Shown: positions 3,005-33,455 of the stretch, piece after piece
How the letters are laid out: each line of letters opens with the position of its first letter
Numbering within the stretch: position 1 is the stretch's first letter
Source: Anaerolineaceae bacterium
Lineage (GTDB): Bacteria; Chloroflexota; Anaerolineae; Anaerolineales; Villigracilaceae
Direction of reading: 5' to 3'
Length of the DNA: 64,000 nt
NCBI GenBank assembly: GCA_009772985.1
Contig: WOUS01000003.1
Span: forward strand, 1 to 64,000
Made by a program: the position numbers and the translations under genes
Notes under the pieces: generated by a model
The model's database searches: none
What the model saw: the letters and a program-made list of their open reading frames with translations, nothing else
Told to the model about the DNA's origin: nothing

Positions 3005-3709
3005 CTATGTGTCTAAAATCTGGCGGGCCTTCATCCAGACCTGGTCGAACATCTCGGCGGTCAGGCGTCCGGTCTGGGTGTTCTGGCGGCTGGGATGGTA
3101 GGAGGCCAGTAACCAGTGTTCAGTATTCAGTGGGTCAGTGTTCAGGCGGAATGCAGCGTTGTGAGCAAAAACTGCCGACGAAGGACGAATGACGGTTGAC
3201 GAACCGTCCGCTTTCGCCGCGAAAATCCGCAGAACGGCATCAAAGGCAATGCGCCCCAAAGCGACAAATACTTTCGGCTGGATGAGTTCGATCTCGCGCG
3301 CCAGATACGGCTGGCAGTTTCTCATCTCCTCCGGCGTGGGCTTGTTATCGGGCGGCGCGCAGCGACAGACGGGGGCCGTGTAGAGATCGCACAAGGTCAG
3401 CCCGTCGGCGCGGGAGGCCGAACCGGGCTGGCTGGCAAAGCCGGCGCGGTGCAGGGCCGGGTAGAGGAAATCGCCCGAGGCGTCGCCGGTGAACTGGCGT
3501 CCGGTCCGGTTGGAGCCGTGCGCGCCGGGGGCCAGCCCGACCACGAACACGCGCGCCTGCGCGTCCCCAAATCCGGGGACGGGCTTGCCCCAGTATTCTT
3601 CATCCCGGTAGGCGCGGCGTTTCTCGCGCGCCATCTTTTCGCGCCATTCCACCAGCCGCGGACAGCGGCGGCAGGAGAGCAGTTCGGCGTTCAGTTCATC
3701 GAGGGTCAT
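3005..3709 (-). CDS. Uracil-DNA glycosylase, family 5 (UdgB-like)
   Basis: [54 protein letters not shown] motifs; contains repeat-derived segments. Confidence 0.88.
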
Positions 3710-4885: not shown

Positions 4886-6001
4886 CTACAAGATCAGCAT
4901 CGCGTCGCCAAACGAGTAGAAGCGATACTTCTCCCGTTTGGCGACTTCGTATGCCTCCAGGATGGCTTCACGCCCGGCAAATGCGCTGACCAGCATCAGC
5001 AGGGTCGAACGCGGCAGGTGGAAATTGGTGATCATAGCATCAACCAGTTTGAATTCATAGCCCGGCAGGATGTAGCAAGAGGTGGGGCCGGTGAATTGGG
5101 CGACGAAGGACGAAGGACGGAGGACCGGTGATCGAATGTCGTTCGTCGCCCGTCTTTCGTCTTTCGTCGTTTTCGCCGCGCTTTCAAGGGTCCGCACAGA
5201 CGTTGTCCCAACCGCGATCACCCGGCCTCCTGCCTGCCGCGTCCGGTTGATAGCATCGGCTGTCTCCTGCGAAAGGTCACACCACTCGGTGTGGATTTGG
5301 TGCTCGGCCGGGTCGTCCTCCGTCACCGGGGCAAACGTGTCCAGCCCAACGTGGAGCGTAACGTACGCGAGACCGACGCCCTGACTCTGCAATTCGTCCA
5401 GCAGGCGCGGGGTGAAGTGCAGGCCGGCGGTCGGCGCGGCGGCAGAACCGGGGTCGCGCGCGTAGACGGTCTGGTAGCGCTCGGGATCGGCCAGTTTCTC
5501 GTGGATGTACGGCGGGAGCGGGACGTTGCCCACTTTCGGGAAATACGGCTCGATGGGTTCGTTAAAACGGACGCGGCGGCGCGACCCTTCCAGCACGTCC
5601 ACAATTTCGGCCCGGAGTCCGAAGTCTCCTGACTTCGGACTTTGCGGCAGTTCCCGACGACGGGAGTCGTCGGACTCCACAACCAGTTGTTTCCCGACCG
5701 ACATTCCTTTCCCGCCGACCAGCGCCTCCCACGTAAGCAAATCTTCGCGGCGCAGGAGCAGGAGTTCCACGCGGCCGCCGGTGGGCTTGCGGGCAAAAAT
5801 CCGCGCCGGAATGACGCGCGTCTGGTTGACAACCAGCAGGTCGCCGGGGTGGAGGTACTCGCCGATGTCGCGGAAGATCGAGTGTTCCAGTGTTCCCGTG
5901 TCACGTTTCAAGATTAGCAGGCGCGATGAATCGCGCGGCTCGATGGGAGTCTGGGCGATGAAGGCGGGAGGCAGGTGGTAATCGAAGTCGGAGGTTTTCA
6001 T
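4886..6001 (-). CDS. queA: tRNA preQ1(34) S-adenosylmethionine ribosyltransferase-isomerase
   Basis: MKTSDFDYHLPPAFIAQTPIEPRDSSRLLIL, PTAGLHFT, AVGTTSVRTLESA, YPGYEFKLVDAMITNFHLPRSTLLMLVSAFAG-type motifs; two repeat-derived insertions. Confidence 0.95.
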   Translation of the reverse strand: MKTSDFDYHLPPAFIAQTPIEPRDSSRLLILKRDTGTLEHSIFRDIGEYLHPGDLLVVNQTRVIPARIFARKPTGGRVELLLLRREDLLTWEALVGGKGMSVGKQLVVESDDSRRRELPQSPKSGDFGLRAEIVDVLEGSRRRVRFNEPIEPYFPKVGNVPLPPYIHEKLADPERYQTVYARDPGSAAAPTAGLHFTPRLLDELQSQGVGLAYVTLHVGLDTFAPVTEDDPAEHQIHTEWCDLSQETADAINRTRQAGGRVIAVGTTSVRTLESAAKTTKDERRATNDIRSPVLRPSSFVAQFTGPTSCYILPGYEFKLVDAMITNFHLPRSTLLMLVSAFAGREAILEAYEVAKREKYRFYSFGDAMLIL

Positions 6002-12899: not shown

Positions 12900-13127
12900 G
12901 CCCTCACCCCCGGCCCCTCTCCCAAAAAGATGGGAGAGGGGAGTCAGGCTCCCGCTTCTCTCTTCCGAAACACACGAGAGAGATGGCGCTCCCCCTTCTC
13001 TCTCCCAGGGTTTGGGAGGGAGAAGGGGGCCGGGGGGATGAGGGAGGGCAGAACCAGTCCTCACCCCCGGCCCCTTCGCGCAGCACCCCTGTGGGGCTCC
13101 CAAAAAGACGGGAGAGGGGAGAAGGAA
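12900..13127. repeat. Family-C palindromic repeat cluster left of DUF559 gene
   Basis: CCCTCACCCCCGGCCCCTCTCCCAAAAAGATGGGAGAGGGG; further copies at ~13000 and 13058, the last interrupted by GCAGCACCCCTGTGGGGCTCC. Confidence 0.85.
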
Positions 13128-13135
13128 ATAACAGG

Positions 13136-13636
13136 ATGAAAAACGAACGCAGAATACGAACCTCGTCCGGCGTCCAACAGCGCGCCAAAGAATTGCGCCA
13201 AAAAATGACACCCGCCGAGAAAATACTCTGGGAGCGCTTGCGTAATCGGCAACTCGGCGGATTGAAATTCCGCCGCCAGCACCCGCTTGGACCCTTCATC
13301 ACCGATTTTTACTGCGCAGAAAAAAGATTGGTGGTGGAGATTGACGGCGATATCCACGACCTGCAACAAGAACAGGATGAACAGCGCACACGCCAGTTCG
13401 AAGAGTTTGGTTATCAGGTCATTCGATTTCGGAACGAAGAGGTTGAAACCAGACTGGGCCTGGTACTCACCAGAATCCTCGAAACCTGCAAACTCCCTTC
13501 TCCCAGGATTGGGAGAAGGGCCGGGGATGAGGGCAGTCCCCCCTCTCCCCGAATTGGGAGAAGGGCCGGGGATGAGGGCAGTCCCCCCTCTCCCCGAATT
13601 GGGAGAAGGGCCAGGGGTGAGGGCAGCCAGGGATGA
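13136..13636 (+). CDS. DUF559 endonuclease-domain protein with repeat-encoded C-terminal tail
   Basis: RAKELRQKMTPAEKILWERLRNRQLGGLKFRRQHPLGPFITDFYCAEKRLVVEIDGDIHDLQQEQDEQRTRQFEEFGYQVIRFRNEEV; tail SPRIGRRAGDEGSPP x3. Confidence 0.9.
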   Translation: MKNERRIRTSSGVQQRAKELRQKMTPAEKILWERLRNRQLGGLKFRRQHPLGPFITDFYCAEKRLVVEIDGDIHDLQQEQDEQRTRQFEEFGYQVIRFRNEEVETRLGLVLTRILETCKLPSPRIGRRAGDEGSPPSPRIGRRAGDEGSPPSPRIGRRARGEGSQG

Positions 13637-14522: not shown

Positions 14523-14554
14523 AACTTAAAACCTGGGACTTGGAACTCGACACC

Positions 14555-17551
14555 ATGACAACTTTACATTTGGTCAGCCACACCCACTGGGACCGCGAAT
14601 GGTACCGCACCTTCCAGCAGTTCCGCCTGCGCCTCGTCCACCTCGTGGATGGCGTGCTCGACCTGCTCGAAGCCGGGCCGCAATTCCGCTACTTCATGCT
14701 CGACGGCCAGACCATCGTGCTGGACGACTACCTGCTGATGCGCCCGGAAAAGGAGGCGCGCCTGCGCCACTTCGTGCAGACCGGACGCCTGACCATCGGC
14801 CCCTGGCACATCCTGCCAGACGAGTTCCTCGTCAGCCCGGAGGCCACAGTGCGCAACCTGCTCGAAGGCGGGCGCACCTGCCGCCGGTTCGGCCCGAAGA
14901 TGCGCGTCGGCTACATCCCGGACCCGTTCGGGCACATCGGGCAGATGCCACAGATCCTGAAAGGATTCGGCATCCACGCCGCCTGCGTCCAGCGCGGCCT
15001 GTCGGACGAGCCGTGCGAATTCTGGTGGGAAGCGCCGGACGGGTCGCGCGTCTTCATGGCCTACCTGCGCGACGGATACGGCAACGCCGCCGGGCTGCCC
15101 GCCTCCGAACCGGAGCATTTCATCTCGGAAGTGAAACGCCTGCGCGACAACCTCGCCCCGCACTCCGCCGGCGACCACCTGCTGCTGATGTTCGGCACCG
15201 ACCACATGGAGCCGCCCGCCGACACCGTCCGCGCGGTCGAAGCGGCGCGCGGCCAACTGGACGGCGACGAACTGGTGCACTCCTCACTAGCCGACTACCT
15301 GACCGCCGTCCAGGCCTCGCTCGACCCACGCGCCCTGCCGGCCGTGCGCGGCGAATTGCGCGACTGCAAACGCTCGCCCCTGCTGCCCGGCGTCCTTTCC
15401 ACGCGCATGTGGATCAAGCAGCGCAACCGCGCCAGCGAAACCCTGCTCGAAAAATGGGCCGAGCCGTTCTCGACGTTTTCAACGTTTGCACATTGGCAAG
15501 TTGGAACGTTTGAACGTTCAAACCTGCCAACATTCCAACGCATTTCCAACCCTGCACCAATAGTTCGGCAAGCCTGGCGTTTACTGATGGAATGCCACCC
15601 GCACGATTCGATTTGCGGCTGCTCCATTGACCAGGTTCACGACGAGATGCGCCCGCGCTTCGACCAGGTGGACCAGATCGGCGAAGAAATCACCCGGCAA
15701 AGCCTGGAAAGCCTGGCGCAAGCCATTAACACCGACGAAAGACCGCCGACGGAAGACGGAACATCCGTCGCCCGTCAATCGTCGTTGGTCGTTTTTAATC
15801 CCACTTCCTCCCCGCGCACCGACGCGGTGGAAGCCGTCGTCGAGAGCGCCGCCGCCTTCGACCTGCTCGACGACCAGGGCCGCCTCGTCCCCTACCAGGG
15901 CCGCGGGCTTGGTTCCCAGGAACTCATCCACGCCGCCCTCAGCCCGAAGGAACTGCAAAACCTGTACGTCGCCGTCCACGACGGGCGCGTGATGGGGATG
16001 TCTGTTCTGGGATTGGACATCACGCGCCAGGGCGGGACCGTCCACCTGGACGCCGCCGTCAGCGAAACGCGCCCGCCGGACCTGGCCGCCTGGCAGCGCG
16101 GCGTGGCCGAGATCGAAATCCTGATGGCCGACCCGTCGGTGAAAGAATTCCGCGTGCGCGCCCGCTCGACCGACTCTGCCCGCATCACCTTCGCCGCCGA
16201 CGTCCCCGGCCTGGGCTGGCGCGCCTACCACGTCGTCCTGCGCCCGGCGGAGGAAAAAGCCGCCGCCGTCATCCCGCCGCTGGCGCGCCTGCTGCTCCCG
16301 CTGGCGAAATCGCCCGCCGCCCAGCGCCTCGCCTCCCGCCCGAAAAAAGCCCGCCTCCCTTGCCGCATCGAGAACGACCTGCTGGCGGTGGATGTGGAAA
16401 AGGACGGCACGCTGACCGTCACCGACAAAGCCACCGGGACGGCGACGCGCGGCCTGAACCGCTTTGTGGACGGCGGCGACTGCGGCGACGAGTACAACTA
16501 CTGCCCGCCCGTTTCGGACCGCATCCCCGCCGCACGTTTAACCGGCGTGACCGCCAGCCGCGGCCCCGTCCAGCAGACGCTCGAACTCGAACTGGAACTC
16601 GACACGCCCGCCTGCCTCGCCCCCGACCGGAAATCCCGCTCGAAGGAAACGCTCGTCACGCGCATCACATCCCTCGTCACGCTCACCGCCGGCGTCCCGC
16701 GCGTGGACATCCACACGCGCCTCGACAACCGCGCCCGCGACCACCGGCTGCGGGTCCACTTCCCACTGACGGACTCCGGCGACTCCAGTCGTCGGAATAT
16801 CCGAAGTCAGGAGACTTCGGAGTCCGCCATCACCGCTGAATACGACGGCCACTTCGAGATCGTGGAGCGCAAGGTTGGAATCCCAGCGTTCGATGATGCC
16901 TGGGTGGAACAGCCCCGGCCCGAGGTCCCGCAGCGTGCGTTTACCAGCGTCACCGACGGCCAGTCGCGCCTGACCGTCGCCAACCGCGGCCTGCCGGAAG
17001 TCGAGGTGATTCCCGGAGTCCGAAGTCTCCAGACTTCGGGGAGCGAGATTGCGGTCACACTCCTACGCTGCGTGGGCTGGCTCTCGCGCGACGATTTCGC
17101 CAACCGCAAAGGCCACGCCGGGCCGTTCCTCGAAACCCCCGGCGCGCAGATGATCGGCGAGTGGGAATTCGATTACTCGATCATCGTGGGGCAAATTGGC
17201 AATTTGCCCTACCAGCAAGCCTGGAATTTCGAGACGCCCCTGCGCGCCGTCTGCACGGACGCGCACCCGGGCAGCCTCCCGCCGTCCGGCTCGTTCGTGG
17301 ACGCGGCCCCGGGCGAATTCGTCGTCTCGGCAGTCAAGCAGGCCGAGGACAGCAAGGGCTGGACCGTGCGCGGCTACAACGTCACCGGCGCGGAGATCAA
17401 CGTGAGCCTGCGCCCGTGGCGGGTTTTCAAAAATGCCGCCCGCGCCAACCTGGCCGAGGAGCAGACCGGCAGCCTGAAACCGGGCCGGGATGGAGCGGTT
17501 TCCTTCCCGGTGCGCGGGCACGAAATTGTGACGGTGAAATTCTGGGATTAA
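14555..17551 (+). CDS. GH38 alpha-mannosidase
   Basis: MTTLHLVSHTHWDREWYRTFQQFRLRLV, GYIPDPFGHIGQMPQILKGFGI, LMECHPHDSICGCSIDQVHDEM. Confidence 0.93.
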   Translation: MTTLHLVSHTHWDREWYRTFQQFRLRLVHLVDGVLDLLEAGPQFRYFMLDGQTIVLDDYLLMRPEKEARLRHFVQTGRLTIGPWHILPDEFLVSPEATVRNLLEGGRTCRRFGPKMRVGYIPDPFGHIGQMPQILKGFGIHAACVQRGLSDEPCEFWWEAPDGSRVFMAYLRDGYGNAAGLPASEPEHFISEVKRLRDNLAPHSAGDHLLLMFGTDHMEPPADTVRAVEAARGQLDGDELVHSSLADYLTAVQASLDPRALPAVRGELRDCKRSPLLPGVLSTRMWIKQRNRASETLLEKWAEPFSTFSTFAHWQVGTFERSNLPTFQRISNPAPIVRQAWRLLMECHPHDSICGCSIDQVHDEMRPRFDQVDQIGEEITRQSLESLAQAINTDERPPTEDGTSVARQSSLVVFNPTSSPRTDAVEAVVESAAAFDLLDDQGRLVPYQGRGLGSQELIHAALSPKELQNLYVAVHDGRVMGMSVLGLDITRQGGTVHLDAAVSETRPPDLAAWQRGVAEIEILMADPSVKEFRVRARSTDSARITFAADVPGLGWRAYHVVLRPAEEKAAAVIPPLARLLLPLAKSPAAQRLASRPKKARLPCRIENDLLAVDVEKDGTLTVTDKATGTATRGLNRFVDGGDCGDEYNYCPPVSDRIPAARLTGVTASRGPVQQTLELELELDTPACLAPDRKSRSKETLVTRITSLVTLTAGVPRVDIHTRLDNRARDHRLRVHFPLTDSGDSSRRNIRSQETSESAITAEYDGHFEIVERKVGIPAFDDAWVEQPRPEVPQRAFTSVTDGQSRLTVANRGLPEVEVIPGVRSLQTSGSEIAVTLLRCVGWLSRDDFANRKGHAGPFLETPGAQMIGEWEFDYSIIVGQIGNLPYQQAWNFETPLRAVCTDAHPGSLPPSGSFVDAAPGEFVVSAVKQAEDSKGWTVRGYNVTGAEINVSLRPWRVFKNAARANLAEEQTGSLKPGRDGAVSFPVRGHEIVTVKFWD
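15470..15550. repeat. In-frame palindrome, family D (TTGGAACGTTTGAACGTTCAAAC...CATTCCAACG)
   Basis: Self-complementary AT-rich segment inside GH38 CDS; encodes STFSTFAHWQVGTFERSNLPTFQR. Confidence 0.8.
15733..15794. repeat. In-frame family-B repeat in GH38
   Basis: CGACGAAAGACCGCCGACGGAAGACGG...CCGTCGCCCGTCAATCGTCGTTGGTCG; encodes DERPPTEDGTSVARQSSLVV. Confidence 0.75.
16771..16825. repeat. In-frame family-A repeat in GH38
   Basis: GGACTCCGGCGACTCCAGTCGTCGGAATATCCGAAGTCAGGAGACTTCGGAGTCC; encodes DSGDSSRRNIRSQETSES. Confidence 0.85.
17015..17043. repeat. Half-length family-A repeat in GH38
   Basis: GGAGTCCGAAGTCTCCAGACTTCGGGGAG; encodes GVRSLQTSGS. Confidence 0.75.
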
Positions 17552-31697: not shown

Positions 31698-33455
31698 CTA
31701 CCTCGCGCCCTTCCGTCCAAACTGCCTCTCCAGCATATCCACCGACAAATGGATCATCGTCGGTCTCCCGTGCGGACAGGTGCGCGGCGAGGCGCAGGCT
31801 TCGAGGTCGTTCAGCAGGGCGCGCTGTTCGTCGGGACCGAGCGCCTGTCCCGCCTTGACCGCCAGCCGCTTGCAGACGCGCCCGGCAATCCTGGCTTCGA
31901 TCTCGTTCTGCAGCGGCGCTTCATCTTCCTCGAAATCTTCCACGAGGGCGCGTAAGGCCGCGGCCGGGTCGGAGTTGGCGAACAGGGAGGGCATGGCGCG
32001 CACCTGGAAGGCATTGCTCCCAAACGACTCGATGTGGAAACCGAAGTGAAGGAGAATAGGTAATTGGGTAATCAGGAGTTCGGCGGAGGAACGGGGCAGT
32101 TCGACAACCACCGGCGTGAGCAATGCCTGCGAAGGGATGTTCTTCTGTTCGTGTTGCGCCATCAACTTCTCGAACAAGACCCGCTCGTGGGCGGCGTGCT
32201 GGTCAATCAGATACAACCCATCCGGGCCTTCGGCGACAAGGTAGGTCGCGCCGATCTGGCCGACAAGGCGTAGCAAAGGCACCTGGGCCGGGGTGGGGAT
32301 CTGGGCCGCCTCCGACGAAAGACGAAGGACGGACGACGAAGGAGCGCTTCCGTCATCGGTCGTTCGTCCTTCGTCGGCTCCATGAGCCAGCCCCCACGCC
32401 GGGTCAATCGTCTGTGGCCGGGACGGCGCGCTGCCCCACAAATTCTGCGGAGCCATCTGCGGGACCGGCGTGTACGCCAGGATGGCGCGGCGCGCCGAAC
32501 GCTGGACGAAACTGAAGACTTTGTCCGGGTTACGGAAGCGGACCTGGGCTTTGGCCGGGTGAACGTTCACGTCCACTTCCTCGGGCGGGACTTCGAGGAA
32601 CAGCGCCGCCAGCGGAAAACGCCCGACCATCAGCAGGGTGTGGTAGGCCTGGAGCAAAGCCGCGTTCAGCGGCGTATCCTGCACCCAGCGCCCGTTGATG
32701 AAAAATGTGATCTCCTTGCGATTGGAGCGTGTCAACGCGACGGGGGAGATGAAGCCGGATAATTTGAATCCTTCTTCTTCCGAAATCACGTCGAGCATCT
32801 GACGGGCCACTTCCACGCCGTAGAGCGCGGCCAAAATCGCGCGCCGGTCGCCGTCGCCGCTGGTTTGCAGGGAGGCGGAACCGCCTTCAGCCAGTTTGAA
32901 GCGCACGTCCGGGTAAGCCAGCGCGTAACGCGTCAGCAGGGCGTCTATGGCGCGGCGTTCGGTCACATCCTGTTTCAGGAACTTGAGCCGCGCCGGAACG
33001 TTGTAGAACAGGTCTTCCACGCTGACGACTGTCCCGACCGGCGCGCCAATTTTTTCCACTTTGCCGATCTTACCGCCTTCCACTTTGAGCCGCGCCCCGG
33101 CGGGAGAGTCGGGGATGCGCGAGGTCAGCGTCAGCCGCGAGACGGAGCCGATGGAGGCCAGCGCCTCGCCGCGGAAGCCCAGCGTGGCGATGCGGAACAG
33201 GTCGTCAGCGGAGACCAGTTTCGAGGTCGCGTGGCGCTCGACGGCGAGGGTCAATTCCCCGGCGGGGATCCCGGCCCCATCGTCGGCGGCCCGGATCAGG
33301 GTCCGGCCGGCTGCGGCGATTTCCACCGTGACCGACTTCGCGCCGGCGTCCAGCGCGTTCTCCAGCAGTTCCTTCACCACCGAGGCGGGGCGTTCCACCA
33401 CTTCCCCGGCGGCGATCTGCGAGGCAACTTCTGTAGGCAAAACGCGGATGCTCAT
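31698..33455 (-). CDS. mutL: DNA mismatch repair protein MutL
   Basis: IRVLPTEVASQIAAGEVVERPASVVKELLENALDAGA, GFRGEALASI, DQHAAHERVLFE, CPHGRPTMI. Confidence 0.97.
   Translation of the reverse strand: MSIRVLPTEVASQIAAGEVVERPASVVKELLENALDAGAKSVTVEIAAAGRTLIRAADDGAGIPAGELTLAVERHATSKLVSADDLFRIATLGFRGEALASIGSVSRLTLTSRIPDSPAGARLKVEGGKIGKVEKIGAPVGTVVSVEDLFYNVPARLKFLKQDVTERRAIDALLTRYALAYPDVRFKLAEGGSASLQTSGDGDRRAILAALYGVEVARQMLDVISEEEGFKLSGFISPVALTRSNRKEITFFINGRWVQDTPLNAALLQAYHTLLMVGRFPLAALFLEVPPEEVDVNVHPAKAQVRFRNPDKVFSFVQRSARRAILAYTPVPQMAPQNLWGSAPSRPQTIDPAWGLAHGADEGRTTDDGSAPSSSVLRLSSEAAQIPTPAQVPLLRLVGQIGATYLVAEGPDGLYLIDQHAAHERVLFEKLMAQHEQKNIPSQALLTPVVVELPRSSAELLITQLPILLHFGFHIESFGSNAFQVRAMPSLFANSDPAAALRALVEDFEEDEAPLQNEIEARIAGRVCKRLAVKAGQALGPDEQRALLNDLEACASPRTCPHGRPTMIHLSVDMLERQFGRKGAR
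32312..32378. repeat. In-frame family-B repeat in mutL linker
   Basis: CGACGAAAGACGAAGGACGGACGACGAAGG...GGTCGTTCGTCCTTCGTCGG; encodes ADEGRTTDDGSAPSSSVLRLSSE. Confidence 0.88.

Follow-up and report, generated by a model that had tools for sequence, protein, structure and literature searches.

Degenerate octamer hairpin arrays at permissive sites of an Anaerolineaceae genome, including a variable loop of a GH38 alpha-mannosidase

The palindrome at 15477..15540 (+ strand) of a 64,000-nucleotide stretch of Anaerolineaceae DNA (the window) was resolved into a series of degenerate octamers, GTT-NN-[C/A]-A-[C/G], which gives way partway along to the reverse complement of the same unit. Arrays of this vocabulary (family D) recur through the genome in a fixed order of arms, occupy protein loops as well as gaps between genes, and are replaced by other vocabularies at the same sites in related species. 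Family D is read here, with about even chances of being right, as a selfish, locally growing hairpin repeat of permissive sites at which vocabularies replace one another.

The source genome comprises 3.03 Mb in 26 contigs. The host gene (14540..17551, + strand; TTG at 14540, with a likelier start at ATG 14555) was assigned as a GH38 alpha-mannosidase by Pfam matches to Glyco_hydro_38N (1.3e-36), Alpha-mann_mid, Glyco_hydro_38C and 38C2. The nearest solved structures were 3lvt/5kbp, and the closest named GH38 records came from Anaerolineales and Chloroflexota metagenome bins. The array was called at 79.4 bits by a Viterbi search, with further evidence from RNA folding, orthologue alignment and predicted structure. 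Its forward units, read from the sequence as GTTTGCAC, ATTGGCAA, GTTGGAAC and GTTTGAAC (15484..15515, + strand), are followed by the reverse-complement units GTTCAAAC, CTGCCAAC and ATTCCAAC (15516..15539, + strand), assigned by sequence and unit model; the in-frame peptide is FSTFSTFAHWQVGTFERSNLPTFQR, and the first forward unit coincides with host codons for T-F-A. The initial annotation had described an AT-rich palindrome in frame in a GH38 gene. The palindrome is real (arms 15493-15516 and 15515-15538, 83% complementary) and lies in frame in an ORF with GH38 N, middle and C domains; it is richer in AT than its surroundings (GC 46% vs 62%), but not AT-rich in absolute terms.

The same annotation had treated the element as one member of a repeat family. 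It is indeed not unique, since a BLAST search of the genome returned 51 partial matches (best non-self E 4.9e-10), and within the window the core GTTTGAACGTTCAAAC, with 3 mismatches allowed, gave 2 matches against 0.16 expected; what recurs, however, is an octamer vocabulary rather than a discrete repeated sequence. Statistics were taken from an 864-kb sample, made up of the window and a 400-kb portion from each of contigs C7 and C2, and from pattern counts over the whole genome. The three-unit pattern GTTNNMANGTTNNMANGTT matched 232 times in the genome (106+126), compared with 7 times (4+3) for the reversed pattern. A two-arm unit model called 20 arrays over the 864 kb, whereas 800 kb of triplet-shuffled sequence yielded none. 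Across all fetched loci, 83 distinct arrays of 24-167 bp scored at least 30 bits: 31 were forward-then-reverse, 24 forward only plus one split, 26 reverse only and none reverse-then-forward, so that single-arm arrays outnumbered two-arm hairpins. The order was GTT-units then AAC-units in 31/31 two-arm arrays; the sole array labelled forward-reverse-forward proved on inspection to contain an ambiguous unit. Octamer positions 1-3 and 7 were 94-98% fixed, position 4 was G in about half of units and T in 0.3, and position 5 was G in 0.6 and A in 0.24. Compared with MITEs, which have fixed terminal inverted repeats and target-site duplications, no constant ends were seen among the arrays, and any target duplications would be obscured by divergence.

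Hairpin formation was predicted at both nucleic acid levels. RNA folds of five elements gave z-scores of -3.0 to -7.7 (-19.7 kcal/mol and z -3.0 for the GH38 array), and DNA folds of three elements gave -2.8 to -6.2. The invariant bases pair between arms, and the NN bases of facing units matched no better than in arms permuted between elements (p 0.86). One arm is therefore not a copy of the other, and the stem consists of short paired cores parted by mismatches; foldback synthesis, in which arms are copied from one another, was ruled out on this ground. Within an arm, by contrast with expectation, identical units were frequent (76 vs 31 expected, p <0.002), as were recurring two-unit blocks (9 vs 1 expected, p <0.002), a pattern suggesting that arms lengthen through internal duplication (slippage). 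Blocks common to different elements were not significantly enriched (49 vs 39 expected, p 0.09). Since recurrence is high within arms and sharing between elements is not significant, growth is local, and dispersed copies of a master element were not supported. A long array at locus L026 contains an imperfect block repeat that is visible by eye. Similarity between units at lag 3 within arms (p 0.035) was discarded as not significant once five lags were allowed for.

Under the favoured reading, the 6-base core (CAS-GTT) would supply the microhomology for slippage and template switching, and the hairpin would aid slippage without needing to serve the enzyme. Units that lose the core would leave the turnover and decay, while NN would stay free. 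New sites may be seeded by microhomology with host sequence, for which the GH38 register ACG-TTT-GCA is a candidate case. Arrays persist where their cost is low, in operon gaps and, in frame, in protein surface loops, and such sites are repeatedly emptied and refilled, often by another vocabulary abundant in that species. In keeping with this reading, the orthologous GH38 arrays L033 and L047 differed mostly at core positions, which indicates that selection does not hold the core at this locus; the evidence of core decay amounts to about 8 substitutions in one pair. Other points sit poorly with selfish local growth. Slippage from one seed predicts equal NN, yet the similarity of adjacent units (lag 1) barely exceeded that of random ones (p 0.13). 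Shared registers at array junctions and shared loop states, described below, could partly reflect inheritance instead of new seeding. Finally, a single genome-wide vocabulary that is rare in sister species calls for a trans-acting disperser, and a search for Y1-transposase domains found none.

Such a disperser is the core of the main rival, which is possible but doubtful: a trans-acting enzyme (a transposase, reverse transcriptase or other polymerase) would write or insert arrays of a species vocabulary in the manner of REPIN/RAYT systems. It would account for the single vocabulary (232 matches here, compared with 0-31 in ten congeners), the strict forward-to-reverse polarity, the NN diversity inside arms and the many sites. 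Copying from a master would nevertheless be expected to leave an excess of multi-unit blocks between elements, which was absent, and fixed ends were lacking. This search returned a full match and a partial one, and no arrays flank either of them. The full match (L284, 1459-3024) lies internally or terminally in an ORF of 521 aa whose first part resembles a response regulator, and it is not a typical transposase. With no octamer arrays around either match of this Y1-domain search, RAYT-driven mobility was not supported. The bolder version, that dedicated trans-acting machinery writes lineage-specific arrays with a fixed core and free NN and that whole genomes are periodically rewritten between vocabularies, is considered decidedly improbable.

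Gene context was taken from the predictions of a simple caller, which gave a coding fraction of ~0.87. Among the 20 arrays of the sample, 11 lay wholly inside genes, 3 at gene edges and 6 between genes. Besides GH38, an in-frame octamer case was found in ArgS (KRSQVSTFERLNV), where congeners carry different residues of various lengths at the array position. PGM and TatD were less clear; relatives of PGM have equal length there, so the PGM case is no clean insertion. At locus L026, octamer arrays (500-566, 1030-1073 and 1491-1657) occupy every gap of a run of HlyD, four-helix-type, small protein and ABC-ATPase genes, the longest being 167 bp. It is unlikely, though this context gives the idea some force, that the arrays are functional, as RNA hairpins tuning the stability or translation of operon mRNA or as binding sites of nucleoid proteins, with in-gene copies as by-products. 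The strength of the predicted folds (z -3.0 to -7.7), the location of 9/20 arrays outside genes or at their edges though only ~13% of the sequence is non-coding, and an array in every gap of one four-gene run would fit such a role. It is harder to square with the swapping of vocabularies at the same gap, with the empty gap of some relatives, with NN positions that do not covary, with single arms being commoner than two-arm hairpins, or with more than half of the arrays lying inside coding sequence.

Swapping was seen in the gaps downstream of argS and pgm, which were compared among relatives at 70-90% amino-acid identity. Octamers were present in the gaps of the present genome, L228 and L259 and decayed in L255; other relatives carried inverted repeats with GTGTNNN-like, GGGAT/AATCCC-like or TGTCATTGCGAG motifs, these non-octamer labels being assigned by eye, and L256 and L258 had almost no gap. 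Across 25 genomes of the family, whose assemblies differ in completeness, octamer matches ranged from 0 to 505. Genomes with octamers in the GH38 loop had more of them genome-wide (median 42 vs 9, p 0.007; p 0.017 without the present genome). In the class as a whole, the strict four-unit pattern occurred in 31/298 genomes, again from assemblies of differing completeness.

The GH38 loop gave a second record of replacement. The comparison with orthologues that the initial annotation had proposed as a check showed that the D residues are not conserved: between conserved flanks (WAEPFSTFA before, LRQAWRLLM after) the orthologues are hypervariable. In an AlphaFold2 model of the enzyme (mean pLDDT 81.7) the D insert was placed, at lower confidence, in a loop between helices 285-316 and 333-345. 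At the DNA level, octamer arrays filled this loop in 7 distinct orthologues, GAC-heptamers in 7, TTCATCC heptamers in 2 and a different palindrome in 1, with nothing recognised in the rest; heptamer states were assigned by eye. On a GH38 tree built without the loop by a quick method, whose change counts cannot separate gain from loss, the loop state changed at least 12 times, with at least 5 changes each for D and H7 by well-supported branches. The octamer and heptamer families cannot both be ancestral, and replacement in the loop must therefore have happened repeatedly. In 7/7 array-bearing orthologues the octamers shared the register of the host codons ACN-TTT-GCN (here ACG-TTT-GCA), which suggests either seeding on this motif or an inherited register. 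Palindromes with TGTCATTCTGAG or TGTCATTGCGAG motifs were also observed at the same permissive sites, in the GH38 loop of L099 and L040 and in the gaps of L230 and L260.

All seven D-bearing loops are open in frame and encode similar peptides (VQTFKPAN and the like), as would be expected if selection kept the array as a structural element of the enzyme, a linker peptide TFxRSN whose DNA regularity is incidental. This explanation is very improbable: the octamer GTT-NN-[C/A]-A-[C/G] also occurs outside genes, its 8-nt period places core bases at every codon position, the same loop is filled by peptides of other families, and the loop is short in outgroup GH38 proteins, the solved 3lvt among them.

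The GH38 gene had further been described as a hot spot with three more repeats, and these are present. Family B (15734..15794, + strand) repeats the layout of family D in heptamers, with GACNNNN units followed by NNNNGTC units at 7-nt periodicity, and lies in the linker between the middle and C domains, which is variable among aligned relatives. Family A is a palindrome with AGTC motifs. Its first copy (16767..16829, + strand) is an inverted repeat encoding an insert of ~16 residues (pLDDT <50 at 743-757) that is absent from every aligned relative except one, which has a shorter, unrelated insert. The second, single-armed copy (~17015..17043, + strand), placed by sequence, alignment and pLDDT, falls in the turn of a beta-hairpin whose strands are 815-819 and 831-839, with pLDDT <50 at 823-827; L095 and L098 have different inserts in this turn. 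All three families thus occupy stretches that vary in the alignment of relatives, and PDB 3lvt lacks counterparts of the D and A regions. Counting D, B and A elements, GH38 carried 4 and every other of 712 predicted genes at most 2; it was the sole gene with at least 4, where 0.0009 were expected. The gene was picked because it had been noticed beforehand, yet it is also the sample maximum. A generic imperfect-palindrome scan overlooked the degenerate GH38 elements and was left out of these counts. An initial count of 26 family A elements was inflated by chance 9-mers (shuffles gave 19-28), and paired motifs gave 8 in 864 kb.

Other vocabularies were noted along the way. GAC heptamers formed 19 clusters, compared with 0-2 in triplet shuffles; the reversed pattern failed as a null, matching about equally often, and its matches probably come from CAG-spaced arrays that also exist. 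Further GAC/GTC heptamer arrays of family B were found in the window at 3176-3206, 5101-5168 and 32314-32375, forward-then-reverse when two-armed. At L189 (contig C7:156332-156460) nonamers of the form (AAGTCTGAC)n precede reverse units and make up a vocabulary of their own, and at C2:276578-276646 a nonamer array runs straight into an octamer reverse array. Elsewhere in the window (13495-13565 and 12983-13636), a C-terminal tail PSPRIGRRAGDEG occurs three times at an ORF end; the palindromic CCCTTCTCCC...GGGAGAAGGG repeats that encode it form a further protein-extending family.

Among known systems, REP and REPIN elements (PMC3116915, PMC3733652) share with the octamer arrays their short hairpin DNA, high copy number per genome and species-specific families. 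They have a conserved sequence and RAYT transposases and lie mostly in gaps, whereas more than half of the octamer arrays lie in genes (11/20 wholly inside predicted genes), and neither a conserved 16-20-mer, a GTAG/CGTC foot nor an associated RAYT was found for them. The available parts of the reports on the (GATAGRA)n satellites of Chloroflexus aurantiacus (PMC6749651) and the TAACTGA heptamer repeats of Beggiatoaceae (PMC4679880) likewise describe short tandem units, either dispersed through a genome that belongs to the same phylum or found in gaps on the upstream side of genes; they are presented there as direct repeats whose unit is more uniform, with no mention of hairpin polarity, in-frame insertion into loops or replacement of vocabularies. 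A literature search, mainly of openly accessible papers, gave no description of octamer arrays in Anaerolineae. The small dispersed repeats of cyanobacteria treated by Elhai and others in 2008 are reportedly also close.

Rickettsia palindromic elements (RPEs) are in-frame palindromes of 105-146 bp with a recognisable family sequence (PMC2229807). Like them, the octamer arrays are palindromic, occur between genes as well as within conserved protein genes, where they keep the reading frame, and are tolerated by the host protein; as in-frame insertions absent from orthologues they behave similarly, the GH38 and ArgS loops differing between relatives. Unlike RPEs, they consist of periodic degenerate units over 24-167 bp with neither fixed sequence nor fixed ends, and only the octamer rule, not an alignable family sequence of ~105-146 bp, is common to them. 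Replacement of one unit vocabulary by another accounts for odd low-complexity inserts in the GH38 proteins of these bacteria (VQTFKPAN, VHRPSSIV), a possible trap for annotation and structure prediction.

The closest system that works alike is the P6b stem of the Nostoc trnL intron, built of heptanucleotides (Class I TDNGATT, Class II NNTGAGT) that have been repeatedly replaced (PMC4476775). There too the stem is made of short degenerate motifs with free positions, the arms are complementary at fixed positions only, variation falls mostly at unpaired positions, and one motif class has replaced another at the same site several times, as in the GH38 loop and the argS and pgm gaps. P6b is one RNA site in one intron, whereas the Chloroflexota arrays occupy dozens of sites, protein loops included, with units of 7, 8 and 9 nt; the unit sequences differ, and no homology is claimed. 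Across many species one unit vocabulary has taken the place of another at a given protein loop or gene gap, which offers a natural series for asking how tiny repeats without an enzyme of their own arise and spread. The arrays are best read as resembling P6b stems combined with Rickettsia in-frame palindromes, which brings together two phenomena so far treated separately: hairpin stems made of degenerate units, and selfish palindromes lying in frame.
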